Shown in pieces: positions 4,005 through 34,691 of a DNA stretch of 64,000 nucleotides. Within the stretch, counting starts at the first letter, position 1. Every line of letters begins with the position of its first letter. The position numbers and the translations under genes are program-made. The stretch is from Prochlorococcus marinus CUG1417. GTDB lineage: Bacteria; Cyanobacteriota; Cyanobacteriia; PCC-6307; Cyanobiaceae. Under the pieces are notes generated by a model, which was not told where the DNA came from, ran no database searches, and saw nothing but the letters and a program-made list of their open reading frames with translations. The stretch spans positions 620,001-684,000 of the forward strand of contig NZ_JAAORN010000001.1 of the NCBI RefSeq assembly GCF_017695975.1. The letters are read 5' to 3'.

Positions 4005-4273
4005 TTCTAAGACAAAAACATATTTTAACAAAAACAAAAAAAATGTTGATAGTTTTTTTTTATATTTTTTCTAAATTTTCTTTTGATAGGAGGAAGTGTT
4101 TTCATACTCATGTTACCCCTCATGCAAGCTAGTTTCTAAAATAGTTTTCCCATTTTATAAAAATTGATCTGATGAGGTTTAATTAAAACAGTGAGCAACT
4201 TTAAATTTTGATAATAGTCGAGTAAATCGGATAAAAAGCATTAAATTTAATTTTTTAATCTTTAGATTTTTGA

Positions 4274-4996
4274 TTAGTCAAATGTTTTAAAAGAATTTTC
4301 TAGTAATTCATTTAATTCTAAAAGTTCTTCTTTGGTAAATTCACGATATTTTCCTGTGGGTATGTCTAAATTAATATTCATAATTCTCACACGTTTTAGT
4401 GATTGCACTCTGTAACCTAATGCCTCACACATACGTCTAATCTGACGGTTAAGTCCTTGAGTTAGTATGATCTTAAATTTTTTCCCCCCCAATTGCTTTA
4501 CGAAACAACGCCTAGTTACGGTGTCTAAAATCTCAACACCATTGCGCATACTTTGAATAAAGTCCCTATCAATAACACGATTAACGCTTACGATGTATTC
4601 TTTTTCATGATTATTTCTAGCTCTTAGTATTTTATTTACAATATCTCCATCATTAGTTAAAAAAATTAGGCCCTCACTTGGCTTATCCAATCTTCCGATA
4701 GGAAATATTCTTTTTGGATAATTAATAAAGTCTATAATATTAGCGGGCTCTACTTTTCTATTGGTTGTGCATACAATTCCAACAGGTTTATTAAAGGCTA
4801 AGTAAATTTTCTTTTGTTTTGTTGATTTATCTATTCTTTGACCTTCTACTTTAACTTGATCCCCTTCCTCTAGCTTGGCACCTATTCTGGAAATTTTACC
4901 ATTAATGGTAACTTTCCCTTCCTCAATTAGTCTATCTGCCACTCTTCTAGAACAGTAACCGACTTGACTTAAATATTTGTTTAATCTGGTAGCCAT
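4274..4996 (-). CDS. rluF: 23S rRNA pseudouridine synthase, RluF/RsuA family
   Basis: 240 residues. An N-terminal S4 RNA-binding domain (residues ~1-55, RLNKYLSQVGYCSRRVADRL) precedes the catalytic domain. Motif II, GRLDKPSEGLIFLTNDGD, holds the catalytic Asp. The block NKILRARNNHEKEYIVSV and the C-terminal QIRRMCEALGYRVQSLKRVRI resemble RluF more than RluB or RsuA. Expected role: isomerisation of a specific uridine to pseudouridine in 23S rRNA. The subfamily is likely, the family certain. Confidence 0.85.
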   Translation of the reverse strand: MATRLNKYLSQVGYCSRRVADRLIEEGKVTINGKISRIGAKLEEGDQVKVEGQRIDKSTKQKKIYLAFNKPVGIVCTTNRKVEPANIIDFINYPKRIFPIGRLDKPSEGLIFLTNDGDIVNKILRARNNHEKEYIVSVNRVIDRDFIQSMRNGVEILDTVTRRCFVKQLGGKKFKIILTQGLNRQIRRMCEALGYRVQSLKRVRIMNINLDIPTGKYREFTKEELLELNELLENSFKTFD

Positions 4997-5153: not shown

Positions 5154-5199
5154 TATGAAAAAAAACTAACTTAAGAATAATTGTAAATAAGTTAGTTTT
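5154..5199 (-). terminator. Strong intrinsic terminator, probably for tRNA-Ser
   Basis: A perfect 12-bp inverted repeat (AAAACTAACTTA at 5162-5173, TAAGTTAGTTTT at 5188-5199) with a 14-nt loop, followed on the minus strand by a T-run (A-run at 5154-5165 on the plus strand). It sits immediately below the duplicated tRNA 3' end at 5204-5221, as if it were the original tRNA terminator pushed away by the 249-bp insertion. Confidence 0.75.
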
Positions 5200-5203
5200 A
5201 GAC

Positions 5204-5470
5204 AACGGAGGGGGTGGGATTATTTTCAAGTCAAAATGACGAGCTATGACAACCTATGACAGCAAAAATCTGAAATCGATTGTTAAATCTGCCAACAAAT
5301 CTGCCAACAATTTATTGACGATGTATGAAGTTAAATGATGAGTTATGACTAGGCTAAGAATCATTTATTTTGCAAATTCTGCTTTATATCTAGTATTAAA
5401 ATAATTCTGAAAGCGTATGAAGGCTTATGACGATATGTGACTTCTTTCTAAAAACGGAGGGGGTGGGATT
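5204..5470. mobile_element. Integration scar bounded by tRNA-Ser 3'-end direct repeats
   Basis: The 18-bp sequence AACGGAGGGGGTGGGATT occurs at 5204-5221 and again at 5453-5470, where it is the real 3' end of tRNA-Ser plus two bases. The copies are direct and 249 bp apart, the attL/attR pattern left by tyrosine recombinases that target tRNA 3' ends. Between them are repeated, same-orientation TATGAC-type words (5241-5250, 5251-5260, 5341-5349, 5422-5431, and weaker ones near 5317, 5413 and 5432), reminiscent of integrase arm-type sites. There is also a 12-bp tandem repeat AAATCTGCCAAC at 5285-5308. No coding gene is visible here. Confidence 0.6.
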
Positions 5471-5541
5471 CGAACCCACGGTGCCCTTGCAGACACGCTA
5501 GTTTTCAAGACTAGAGCCTTAAACCACTCGACCACCCCTCC
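5455..5541 (-). tRNA. tRNA-Ser (anticodon UGA)
   Basis: 87 nt. The acceptor GGAGGGG at the 5' end pairs with CCCCTCC at the 3' end, leaving discriminator G. The anticodon stem-loop reads CTAGT-CTTGAAA-ACTAG, giving anticodon TGA, which decodes UCA/UCN serine codons. A long variable arm (GCGTGTCTGCAAGGGCACC region) and a normal T-loop GGTTCGAATCC make it class II. CCA is not encoded. It is the anchor of the integration scar on its 3' side and has a decayed partial copy on its 5' side. Confidence 0.97.
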
Positions 5542-5666
5542 AGGAGAGAAATATTAAATTTTAGCTTCCTAATTATAACAAAAGGTGGTTGATTTTTTCG
5601 GAAAAAGTTCGGAAACGCATGTGAAGTTAGATATGAAAGCTATTGCCATAACTAAACATAAATCAA

Positions 5667-5708
5667 ATTTTCAAGACTAGAACCTTAAACCACTTGAACA
5701 CCTCTCGA
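5667..5708 (-). pseudogene. Decayed 5' half of a tRNA-Ser gene
   Basis: The stretch TTTTCAAGACTAGAACCTTA, continuing AACCACTTGAACACC, matches the anticodon loop through the 5' end of the intact tRNA-Ser at 5504-5541 with only a few substitutions; the T-arm half is absent. It lies about 130 bp upstream of the intact gene, in the same orientation. This looks like the remnant left when an earlier integration or recombination event broke a tRNA-Ser copy. The intervening stretch 5542-5841 otherwise holds no gene. Confidence 0.65.
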
Positions 5709-5841
5709 AAGGAGGAAATTCTTTTAATAAATTAAAAGCCTTAAGTAAGGTATTTATTTATTTTTTTTTTTATTTTTTGATTAGCTTTTTAAGGTGAAAA
5801 GCAAAGTAGTAAATTATAGTAATAACAAAAATCTTTAATTT

Positions 5842-6771
5842 ATGAGTTTTATTAAAAAAAATATATTTTCAAAGTTTTTAAGAGCTACTAAAAGGCCACT
5901 ATTTTATTGCTCTCTTTTGATTAAGAGTTTATTAATGAGGTTTTTTAAGATAAAGGTTGAGATAAATAGAAATCCAATAGAATGGGCATTTCTTCTCTCG
6001 AATCTATCAAAATTTAATTTAGGAGATGATTTGTTTATAAATTCTAAAAAAAAGAAAAAAATTAATCAAAAGATAGTATTCCTTGATATTGGAGCAAATG
6101 ATGGAACCTATGCTCCAAGATTTTTAGACAAATTTTGTAAAGATAATAATTTAGATCTTACATTATATGCTTTAGAACCAATCAGGAGTAATTTTAAAAT
6201 ACTTGAAAAAAATCTTGAAAATTTGAAAAATATAAATGCTTATCCATTTCTGTTGGGTGCTAGTGATCAGAATCAAAAAACTATTATCTATCATGCCCAT
6301 CGAGCCAAATGGCATTCTATCCCAAACAATGAATTTAATAAAAAAGCATCTGGCATTGAAGAAGAAATAAAATTAATCAAGATCGATGATTTTGTTAAAG
6401 ATAAATTATTAGATAATCCATCTTTAATTATAAAAATTGATGTTGAAGGTTATGAATTAAATGTTTTAAAAGGAATGCAGAATATCTTGGAGAACCAAAT
6501 TCCTGAAGCAATAATTTTTGAAACAGATTTAAACAAAGAATATATACAGCACTCTTACTTCCCAGAAATGCACGACTTTTTAGATAGATATAATTACAAA
6601 TGCGCTAAGTTTTCGAATCAAAGTACTAGGAGAAACTGGATTGAGAAAGGGACATTTAGGATGAGTGAATTTGATGCGATTTATGTGAGGGGTAATAAAA
6701 ATCCCTCCATATATTCTGCTGCAATAGATAATCATTTTAAGGATGTAGAAACATCAAAATCTAGATTATGA
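5842..6771 (+). CDS. FkbM-family SAM-dependent methyltransferase
   Basis: 309 residues. SAM motif I, FLDIGANDGTY, lies at residues 80-90, and the FkbM signature KIDVEGYELNVLKGM at ~198-212. The family O-methylates diverse small molecules and surface-glycan sugars; the N-terminal extension of ~75 basic residues is unusual. It sits alone beside the tRNA-Ser integration scar, and such genes are common cargo of cyanobacterial surface-modification islands, so acquisition by transfer is plausible. The substrate cannot be inferred. Confidence 0.8.
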   Translation: MSFIKKNIFSKFLRATKRPLFYCSLLIKSLLMRFFKIKVEINRNPIEWAFLLSNLSKFNLGDDLFINSKKKKKINQKIVFLDIGANDGTYAPRFLDKFCKDNNLDLTLYALEPIRSNFKILEKNLENLKNINAYPFLLGASDQNQKTIIYHAHRAKWHSIPNNEFNKKASGIEEEIKLIKIDDFVKDKLLDNPSLIIKIDVEGYELNVLKGMQNILENQIPEAIIFETDLNKEYIQHSYFPEMHDFLDRYNYKCAKFSNQSTRRNWIEKGTFRMSEFDAIYVRGNKNPSIYSAAIDNHFKDVETSKSRL

Positions 6772-8524: not shown

Positions 8525-8719
8525 ATGTTTTCTAGAAGCAAAAAACCTACAGTAAAAAAATCTGCAATAGTTGAAGAGACTCCATTATTTGCTCAATTAC
8601 TACCATTCGCAAACAGAATGAATGATAAGGTTCAATTGGTAAATGCTTTGGCTTTTACTTTTATTATGGGATTCTCAATTTTTGGAATTGCCCTATGGAA
8701 ACTATCAGGGCTGACCTAA
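8525..8719 (+). CDS. 64-residue single-helix membrane protein
   Basis: Soluble basic N-terminus (MFSRSKKPTVKKSAIVEETP), then an amphipathic stretch, then one membrane helix (AFTFIMGFSIFGIALWKL). The length and layout are typical of small conserved cyanobacterial thylakoid proteins. Family not recognised. Its stop overlaps the end of the convergent gene at 8716 by four bases. Confidence 0.65.
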   Translation: MFSRSKKPTVKKSAIVEETPLFAQLLPFANRMNDKVQLVNALAFTFIMGFSIFGIALWKLSGLT

Positions 8720-33828: not shown

Positions 33829-33942
33829 TTATTTAGTTTTAATTTTTTTGTTAATTCTTAGAAAACCATAAGTTCCAAAACCAACCAAAAACATGTCCAG
33901 GTAAATATGCCAAGTAGGAAAAATCTGATGTATTAATTCCAT
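33829..33942 (-). CDS. 37-residue single-helix membrane protein
   Basis: ATG 33942 overlaps the stop codon of the ligase-like gene by one base (TAATG). Reads MELIHQIFPTWHIYLDMFLV, then GFGTYGFLRI and a basic tail, one membrane helix with a positive-inside end. A protein of similar size and layout (PQLIGFVLMSIGYTLG) is at 37783-37902. Last gene of a three-gene minus-strand unit with 33942-34898. Confidence 0.55.
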   Translation of the reverse strand: MELIHQIFPTWHIYLDMFLVGFGTYGFLRINKKIKTK

Positions 33943-34691
33943 TAACTTTTTATAGCAACCTGCCAATAAGGATAATCTAAATTTGATTTTTCTCTAATTA
34001 ATTGTAATTTTCTAGAATTTATTTTTACTACTATTCCATCTGTAGGATATTTACTAAAAAGCTTCCCTTCCAGCCATTGTTTTCTAAATATTTCAACTTG
34101 GCTCGTAAAGTTGCATGAAATATCTTGAGGGATTGTGAAGCCTAGCTTAGAAAGACTCTTTTTGGACTCATATTGGTTAAGTGTTGAATTAAGTATTTGA
34201 AATGCGCAGAAGCTAAGACTTTCAGAAAATCCTTCTTTAGCTCTTAGAAATCCAGAAGAGATTCTCTGTGAGATATTTGGACTTTGGTTGGGTGCATATA
34301 ATTCACCTCTAACTTGAAGAACTCCTCGTAAAGGGAGATCATTGGGAATGCCCTGGACATTAATAATTTTACTAGTAACGTCTGTCCCTTCTCTTGAAAT
34401 TGCTTTCTCCAAGGTCCCATTCCTATATTGCAAAGCAATAGCACAACCATCAATTTTAGGTTCAATTAATAATCTGGTATCTACTAATAATCCTTTCAAA
34501 AATTCATCTATTGAATCCTTTACTAATGAAGGTAAAACTAGTTTATTTTTCTTTTTAAAGTAATCACAATTAGGATTTATTCTTAATAAATTCTTTTCAA
34601 GTTGGTCGAACTGCTTATCAGAGATTAAAGCATTACCATTTCTATAATTATAGTCATACCATTCAATTCGTTCTTCTAAATAAGTCTTCAT
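33942..34691 (-). CDS. NAD+-dependent DNA ligase adenylation domain, stand-alone
   Basis: 249 residues against ~670 in full LigA. The N-terminal NMN-binding Ia-type segment (WYDYNYRNGNALISDKQFDQ) and every adenylation motif are visible: EPKIDG with Lys79, LEKAISREGTDVT, LQVRGELY, TDGIVVKIN and a motif V-like PYWQVAIKS. The protein stops exactly there. The OB fold, zinc finger, HhH and BRCT domains are missing and no second half follows in any frame. It should bind NAD+ and self-adenylylate, but nick sealing is doubtful without the OB domain. It lies between two microprotein genes with 0-1 bp spacing. Confidence 0.8.
   Translation of the reverse strand: MKTYLEERIEWYDYNYRNGNALISDKQFDQLEKNLLRINPNCDYFKKKNKLVLPSLVKDSIDEFLKGLLVDTRLLIEPKIDGCAIALQYRNGTLEKAISREGTDVTSKIINVQGIPNDLPLRGVLQVRGELYAPNQSPNISQRISSGFLRAKEGFSESLSFCAFQILNSTLNQYESKKSLSKLGFTIPQDISCNFTSQVEIFRKQWLEGKLFSKYPTDGIVVKINSRKLQLIREKSNLDYPYWQVAIKS

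Follow-up and report, generated by a model that had tools for sequence, protein, structure and literature searches.

A 249-bp interval beside a tRNA-Ser gene of Prochlorococcus as a probable stub of an integrative element

We analysed a 64,000-nt stretch of the Prochlorococcus marinus CUG1417 genome (hereafter the window) and found that the interval 5204-5452, adjacent to tRNA-Ser(TGA), is very probably the remnant, or a minimal non-autonomous version, of an integrative element that relied on a P4-like tyrosine integrase and targeted the last ~12 bases of the tRNA gene. As judged from its sequence, the interval appears to consist of the two ends of such a tRNA-3'-end element fused to each other. 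Rather than being an isolated scar, it belongs to a size class of stubs and represents one state of an element family that stacks up at this tRNA.

Core repeat, empty sites and relatives

Positions 5204-5221 and 5453-5470 form an exact 18-bp direct repeat with a spacing of 249 bp, and about 1e-4 such pairs are expected by chance in a stretch of 1001 bp. The duplication, already recognised in an earlier sequence-only reading of this DNA, corresponds to the 3' end of tRNA-Ser(TGA) plus one base. The tRNA gene (5454-5542, minus strand; Rfam search) is intact and represents the integration target. The inner core copy (5453-5470) belongs to its 3' end; within the outer, left copy (5204-5221), the part common to the whole class spans about 12 bp, ACGGAGGGGGTG.

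The segment between the copies was divided with the help of end similarity to relatives. The left end (LE, 5222-5284, plus strand) contains period-10 words at 5245-5260, and the right end (RE, 5309-5452, plus strand) contains words at 5344 and about 5416-5436. Between them lies a single putative arm-type pair (5285-5308, plus strand), a perfect 12-bp tandem repeat (AAATCTGCCAAC twice) present in one copy common to LE and RE. The word TATGAC occurs at 5245, 5255, 5344 and 5426, always on the plus strand. At least four occurrences in 249 bp have a probability of about 2e-6 at the shuffled rate; the whole window is mildly rich in this word (35 versus 22.2 in shuffles). None of the listed ORFs of at least 60 aa overlaps 5204-5452, i.e. 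the interval contains no integrase gene.

We searched 266 genomes of the genus, 256 of which gave a match, and extracted the tRNA neighbourhood from 118 relatives. Including the window, a full tRNA was present in 116 of 119 loci; the 116 exclude L039, L043 and L045, which have no full tRNA, and L062, which is the second half of one genome. The core gene to the left of the tRNA, g3804, was located in 107 loci, and the nine of 116 without a g3804 match were dropped. In 41 of the 107 loci 72-87 bp separate g3804 from the tRNA 3' end, which corresponds to an empty site; the distance is 88-200 bp in two loci, 201-600 bp in six and above 600 bp in 58. In L050, the nearest relative (95% nrdJ identity), there is a single core, i.e. 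an empty site. Strains with a single 3'-end copy had been predicted from the window alone, and the opposite outcome, an identical interval in all relatives without any empty site, is not what these loci display.

Three kinds of element use this tRNA. Type (a), or T-type, is bounded by a duplicated tRNA 3' end of about 12-18 bp and is represented by 25 elements in 23 of 116 loci when at most one core mismatch is allowed. Type (b), with 20 elements in 19 loci, has a 57-bp copy of the 3' half reaching to the anticodon loop, and type (c) has a copy of the 5' half and occupies the other side of the gene. The window element is of type (a). Kept out of the count of 25 were L100, whose core is ambiguous, and L107, L038 and L096, which have similar ends and no left core at one mismatch.

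Relatives of the window element, designated family A, have the same ends, four of them around cargo. The window LE (80 bp) is 81-93% identical to the corresponding ends of L033, L034, L035, L048 and L060, and its RE is 80-87% identical to theirs. In L034, L035, L048 and L060, window-like ends surround about 2 kb of unrelated genes. Among them, L035 encodes a NucS-like nuclease and L060 a restriction cassette (EcoRV-like endonuclease and D12 methyltransferase); the one protein scanned from each of L034 (431 aa) and L048 (163 aa) has no match in Pfam. Empty sites and identical types of ends around different cargo support the earlier proposal that a tyrosine-recombinase-type element entered the tRNA 3' end.

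Several further features of the left side were observed. L047, located left of the tRNA, combines LE of one family with RE of family A and is a chimera, possibly of two elements. Several left-side cargo proteins, e.g. those of L035, L052, L066, L081, L089, L090, L106 and L111, begin with a near-identical signal-peptide-like stretch (MKRFLIPLLATLALPTAVNA-like) and then diverge. A 75-aa membrane-like protein (MLRKKEKQTLTRLFLLGVGAPIGLDRFYEGD...), for which Pfam gave no match, recurs as left-side cargo in seven loci (L037, L051, L065, L091, L100, L105 and L117). A conserved block of three genes (~226, 182 and 240 aa) is situated between g3804 and the tRNA in L057, L059, L061, L068, L071, L076, L109 and L147.

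To estimate how elements are distributed, a tree of 72 loci was constructed from nrdJ, a gene a few kb from the tRNA. L107, L038 and L096 were labelled as carriers for the nrdJ trees, and of these L107 is in the tree. Presence of T-type elements requires 15 changes (shuffled mean 14.7) and presence of type (b) elements 12 (12.1 shuffled). The four family A carriers in the tree require four changes, with the window's sister L050 being empty. This distribution fits repeated horizontal arrival of elements; recombination of nrdJ could add to the pattern.

Repeats, stub length and integrases

The preferred reading implies the following course of events. Integrase crossover would take place in the tRNA 3' end, the incoming element would supply its own tRNA 3' end, and the old end would remain as the outer copy. 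Inside each core copy, a full element would carry period-10 words and then a tandem pair of 11-12-bp repeats at near-fixed distance. These pairs would be arm-type sites for the N-terminal domain of the integrase, with cargo placed between the two pairs. In the window, cargo and integrase may have been lost by deletion, leaving one pair common to both ends, as from recombination between two 25-bp repeats; a change in the other direction, by gain of cargo, may also account for the difference.

Comparison of the two ends of each element revealed that their repeats match. In the 18 cargo T-type elements, the longest word common to LE and RE has a mean length of 16.9 bp within elements versus 4.4 bp between them (306 pairings), and common words of at least 12 bp are present in 14 of 18 elements versus 9% of between-element pairings. 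The remaining four fall below 12 bp (L037 outer, 11; L149, 11; L047, 9; L119, 0). For type (b) elements (n=20) the means are 11.05 versus 5.0 bp, and 8 of 20 reach at least 12 bp. Seven integrase-bearing T-type elements have common words of 11-27 bp (mean 20.3 versus 3.7, 42 pairings), located at LE+72 to +91 and RE-126 to -165. Most of the T-type common words are tandem repeats with a period of 11-12, situated at about LE+72 to +96 and mostly at RE-126 to -191. A set of 32 T-type elements, comprising also L202 and the integrase carriers, has period 10 as its main signal close to the cores (z 13.4 and 13.7) and period 11-12 as that deeper inside (z up to 10.7 and 7.2); because these sequences are partly related, all z values are inflated.

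The earlier assignment of arm sites has to be corrected in view of these two kinds of repeat. The 12-bp tandem repeat at 5285-5308 is likely the arm site, whereas the TATGAC words, also taken for arm sites before, appear to be a second, period-10 set close to the cores. The exact window arm pair has eight matches in five of 266 genomes, all at tRNA-Ser places: two copies in each of three cargo-carrier genomes and one in each of two stub genomes, the window's own included. The reversed pattern, used as control, gave no match in the 266 genomes. All eight pattern matches in the genus are integrase-less elements, i.e. no integrase-bearing element with family A repeats was found in this set.

Beyond the genus set, the arm pattern matched 34 stretches in wider genome contigs, mostly outside Prochlorococcus, from which L202 was singled out. 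Five viral contigs with the arm pattern had only repeat-like words or short matches in common with the stub, not its ends, and were dropped. The phage collection yielded one 30-bp match, located in a Bacillus phage tail-fibre gene and taken as chance.

Sizes of the 25 elements are discontinuous. Seven stubs (181, 197, 237, 248, 248, 248 and 258 bp) are separated by a gap from 18 elements of 710-6358 bp. In four family A cargo elements the longest common word lies at LE+79 to +83 and RE-164 to -168; a stub retaining one common word is thereby predicted to measure 247-248 bp, and both the window stub and L033 measure 248 bp. L117 (258 bp) fits the longest word of L077 (81+176=257), while the second word of L077 would give 269. 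One pair is kept in the stubs of the window, L033, L037 and L117, and one unit only in that of L036 (237 bp); no pair is visible in either of the L133 stubs (181 and 197 bp). L202, a named Prochlorococcus record, has a stub of ~206 bp at tRNA-Ser(CGA) containing the pair AAATCACCCAAC and two further copies.

No integrase was detected in the 107 loci with a whole left interval, nor in any of the 25 elements. The sole element found at this tRNA with an integrase inside is L254 of genome G042, a 6.1-kb T-type element encoding a 429-aa integrase and a PF00239 (resolvase-family) recombinase. Its ends resemble those of the integrase-less 1.2-kb L120 (LE 91.8%, RE 94.7% identity), and it represents a sister family of the window's element family. 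The expectation that some strains hold an integrase-bearing element between the core copies was thus borne out in this one genome; elsewhere, cargo elements of about 0.7-6.4 kb lie between the copies. Six further integrase-bearing elements with both cores present were found 3' of tRNA-Ser(GCT), tRNA-Ser(CGA) and tRNA-Asn(GTT), and the integrase-bearing type is a P4-like element of 5-9 kb. A search of integrase carriers for the TATGAC words had also been suggested; all seven have their own words instead of the family A set.

T-type integrases group together (99/99), apart from integrases of 5'-side elements. The group also holds L272, on a long branch, and L259, whose stretch shows no tRNA. The arm DNA-binding domain PF13356 was found in the L262 integrase (2e-13); the other three of four clade members scanned gave no hit to it. 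One of these three, the G042 integrase, falls just below the Pfam cut-off (26.6 versus 27.1 bits). T-type-like integrases (E below 1e-60) occur at 23 places in 21 of 266 genomes. In the window's genome there is no strong match to this group, the best being a 321-aa recombinase of another family (E 3e-8). On the 5' side, an integrase of ~320-405 aa is found near the tRNA in nine of 116 loci.

A tyrosine recombinase of ~389 aa was matched in 15 of 15 genomes searched, one copy being cut by a contig end; in the window's genome it occupies L178:1426-2595, next to a gene that is presumably cobO-like. It looks domesticated. We considered it as a universal helper and do not favour this role, because its nearest relatives are integrases of 5'-side elements and it groups with these, not with the 3'-end clade.

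Other layers around the tRNA

A hairpin followed by a T run (5162-5199, minus strand) sits just left of the outer core copy. It has a perfect 12-bp stem (5162-5173/5188-5199), a 14-nt loop and a folding energy of -10.0 kcal/mol; the terminator scan, which covered loops of 3-8 nt only, did not list it. The hairpin had been interpreted as a terminator displaced from the tRNA. In L050 the corresponding flank abuts the tRNA, and therefore the flank in the window was indeed displaced; the L050 hairpin is weak (-4.0 kcal/mol). By eye, the flank next to the outer core copy is similar to type (b) right ends, and the window hairpin itself may have terminated an older element on its right side instead of being the original tRNA terminator. 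Folding is of no help in its assignment, because right ends of type (b) (mean -10.2 kcal/mol, 18 ends) and T-type elements (-8.8, 19 ends) are not separated.

Further to the left lies a gene with S4 and pseudouridine synthase domains (4274-4996, minus strand; PF01479, PF00849). It is found near the tRNA in nine of 116 loci, in six of these in opposite orientation. A probable decayed 3'-half tRNA copy of the 57-bp type at ~4089-4144 (local score 32 versus a maximum of 26 in 200 shuffles) is probably the left boundary of an older element. Its presence suggests that the pseudouridine synthase gene is probably cargo of an older left-side type (b) element.

On the other side, a 5'-half tRNA copy (5668-5717) marks a second, empty 5'-side element. 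Positions 5543-5667 together with the copy at 5668 constitute a 166-bp stub of another element class, with a putative arm-type pair of its own (5597-5615, plus strand; TTCGGAAA twice, period 11), to be compared with ATTCGGAAACA twice in the integrase-bearing L044. Stubs of 165-168 bp occur on this side in 41 of 116 loci; of 42 short 5'-side intervals, the one of L070 (104 bp) arose from a parsing error. Possession of a 5' stub follows the nrdJ tree (16 changes versus 23.6 shuffled). Two repeat dialects occur among the 31 5'-side stubs of this tree, resembling the pairs of integrase-bearing L044 and L070, the label of L044 being unsure; the dialects require 10 changes versus 10.3 shuffled. The matching-ends test is weak on the 5' side (6.0 versus 2.2), with words of at least 11 bp in 9 of 30 intervals (versus 2.4% of pairings) and 21 intervals below.

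An FkbM-type methyltransferase gene (5842-6771, plus strand; PF05050) separates the tRNA from the ORF at 8525. TRNA and ORF are 3071 bp apart in the window versus about 970-1000 bp in many relatives, and the methyltransferase gene is possibly older 5'-side cargo. In L044, L070 and L131, a stretch resembling the tRNA anticodon stem-loop was seen by eye ~100 bp inside the distal 5'-half copy; it is perhaps a second core-like site. Elsewhere in the window, a 249-aa ORF (33942-34691), which resembles part of an NAD-dependent DNA ligase, is located in a stretch poor in long ORFs (~33-45 kb).

Competing readings and known systems

The stub might be the smallest non-autonomous form of the element, moved in trans by integrases of visiting elements; we give this slightly less than an even chance. 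Conserved ends with variable cargo are in agreement with it, and so is the rarity of integrases at this tRNA, where none was detected in the 25 elements from 23 of 116 loci and only L254 has one. Neither element presence nor 5' stub dialects are related to the nrdJ tree. However, full elements may do the moving and lose their cargo afterwards, and nrdJ may itself recombine. If a matching integrase entered the cell, the stub might still be able to move.

The opposite sub-reading denies any remaining function and regards the interval as inert debris, left over from an old element that shrank to 249 bp by chance decay and was then inherited vertically. Decay of this kind can be seen in L039, where the left core is decayed and one arm unit is left, and in the L133 stubs without a pair; the lack of a strong match to the T-type integrase group in the window's genome points the same way. 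We nevertheless consider inert debris unlikely, as stub lengths cluster where arm geometry predicts, family A carriers are dispersed over the nrdJ tree with the sister L050 lacking the element, and the ends are 80-93% identical to those of elements in genomes with other flanks. More doubtful still is that the stub is a working empty carrier, free of genes and integrase, which travels between cells on visiting integrases and gains or swaps cargo at the tandem arm repeat. If true, the tRNA flank would act as a cassette array that lacks its own integrase; integron cassettes, with attC site and IntI, serve here as an analogy only.

A small non-coding segment between short direct repeats could also stem from a transposon-like event in which 18 bp of target were duplicated (MITE or IS remnant), an origin that we find scarcely credible. 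All elements sit at the same tRNA base, integrase-bearing versions are known, and no inverted pair was found at the ends among the pairs listed. In three family A' elements the left copy has element-specific bases (GTGTGATT), as an att core would have and a target duplication would not. The combination of terminal inverted repeats and target-site duplication of a transposase family, which defines a MITE, was not found, and the element is site-specific. A regulatory RNA or tRNA processing signal, suggested by the position directly 3' of the tRNA, can practically be dismissed, since the interval is absent in at least 41 of 107 loci (empty site) and the tRNA alone passes its gathering score in the Rfam search.

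With the interval taken as an integrative-element stub, the core copy together with a repeat pair matching between ends makes it possible to identify integrase-less tRNA cassettes, a kind that island finders based on integrases filter out. Such elements lie on both sides of this tRNA and carry restriction-modification and other small genes, and their distribution disregards the tree of a nearby gene. The repeat dialects are element-specific, also in integrase-bearing elements. If integrases bind these repeats and each is paired with its own dialect, the dialects would be a code that could link satellites to helpers in Prochlorococcus.

Such stubs were described in no title or abstract opening met by our literature search; absence from print is not claimed, and the paper defining tycheposons was outside its scope. 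Tycheposons of Prochlorococcus, reportedly introduced by Hackl et al. in 2023, are said to combine a tRNA target, a tyrosine recombinase system and cargo. Elements described here are alike in all three respects and in the host genus. The part of PMC10872708 used here gives tycheposons a size of 4-200 kb; the stub is 249 bp long and contains no tycheposon-type tyrosine recombinase. The name tycheposon, applied in the sequence-only reading, is not established, because the matching integrases, which are P4-like, branch as a clade separate from integrases of 5'-side elements. As far as the consulted part of PMC10187409 goes, another integrase group of picocyanobacteria is located upstream of tRNA-Phe or tRNA-Cys, frequently with a small serine recombinase close by, and 'cryptic elements' are mentioned.

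The sections of the Islander paper used here (PMC4383910) distinguish tRNA junction (J) and A sites, terms that may also be applied to the three element kinds at this tRNA; islands with 5' fragments are a small minority there (159 of 3919). The stub shares with these islands a displaced tRNA 3' fragment, and a crossover near the junction of T-stem and acceptor stem would fit the 12-bp core. As in a J-site element, the far boundary is marked by a direct repeat of the tRNA 3' end. By position and matching within elements, both ends appear to carry putative arm-type repeats placed at a constant distance from the core, the stub having one common pair. The 249-bp stub has no integrase gene inside. 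Islander filters, according to the same sections, test for an integrase gene, and most elements described here would be filtered out because they are integrase-less.

Dehalococcoides ssrA islands, in the account available from part of PMC3146451, are likewise tandem units, delimited by 3'-end copies of a small-RNA gene, and 15 of them have no integration module. They use a serine recombinase, and fixed-length cargo-free units are not mentioned in that part of the article. In the portion of PMC5704250 considered, a cis-mobilizable element (CIME) is defined by retention of attL and attR and loss of integration and transfer genes, and CIMEs are found in tandem with other elements at tRNA genes. 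Derivation from an ICE or IME also characterises a CIME; among the elements here, L254 contains an integrase and a resolvase-family gene. The stub is far smaller than a CIME, gene-free and recurring near one length, and no conjugative parent was seen; nevertheless, it appears to keep attL and attR without integration and transfer genes, and it lies in tandem with other elements at its tRNA.
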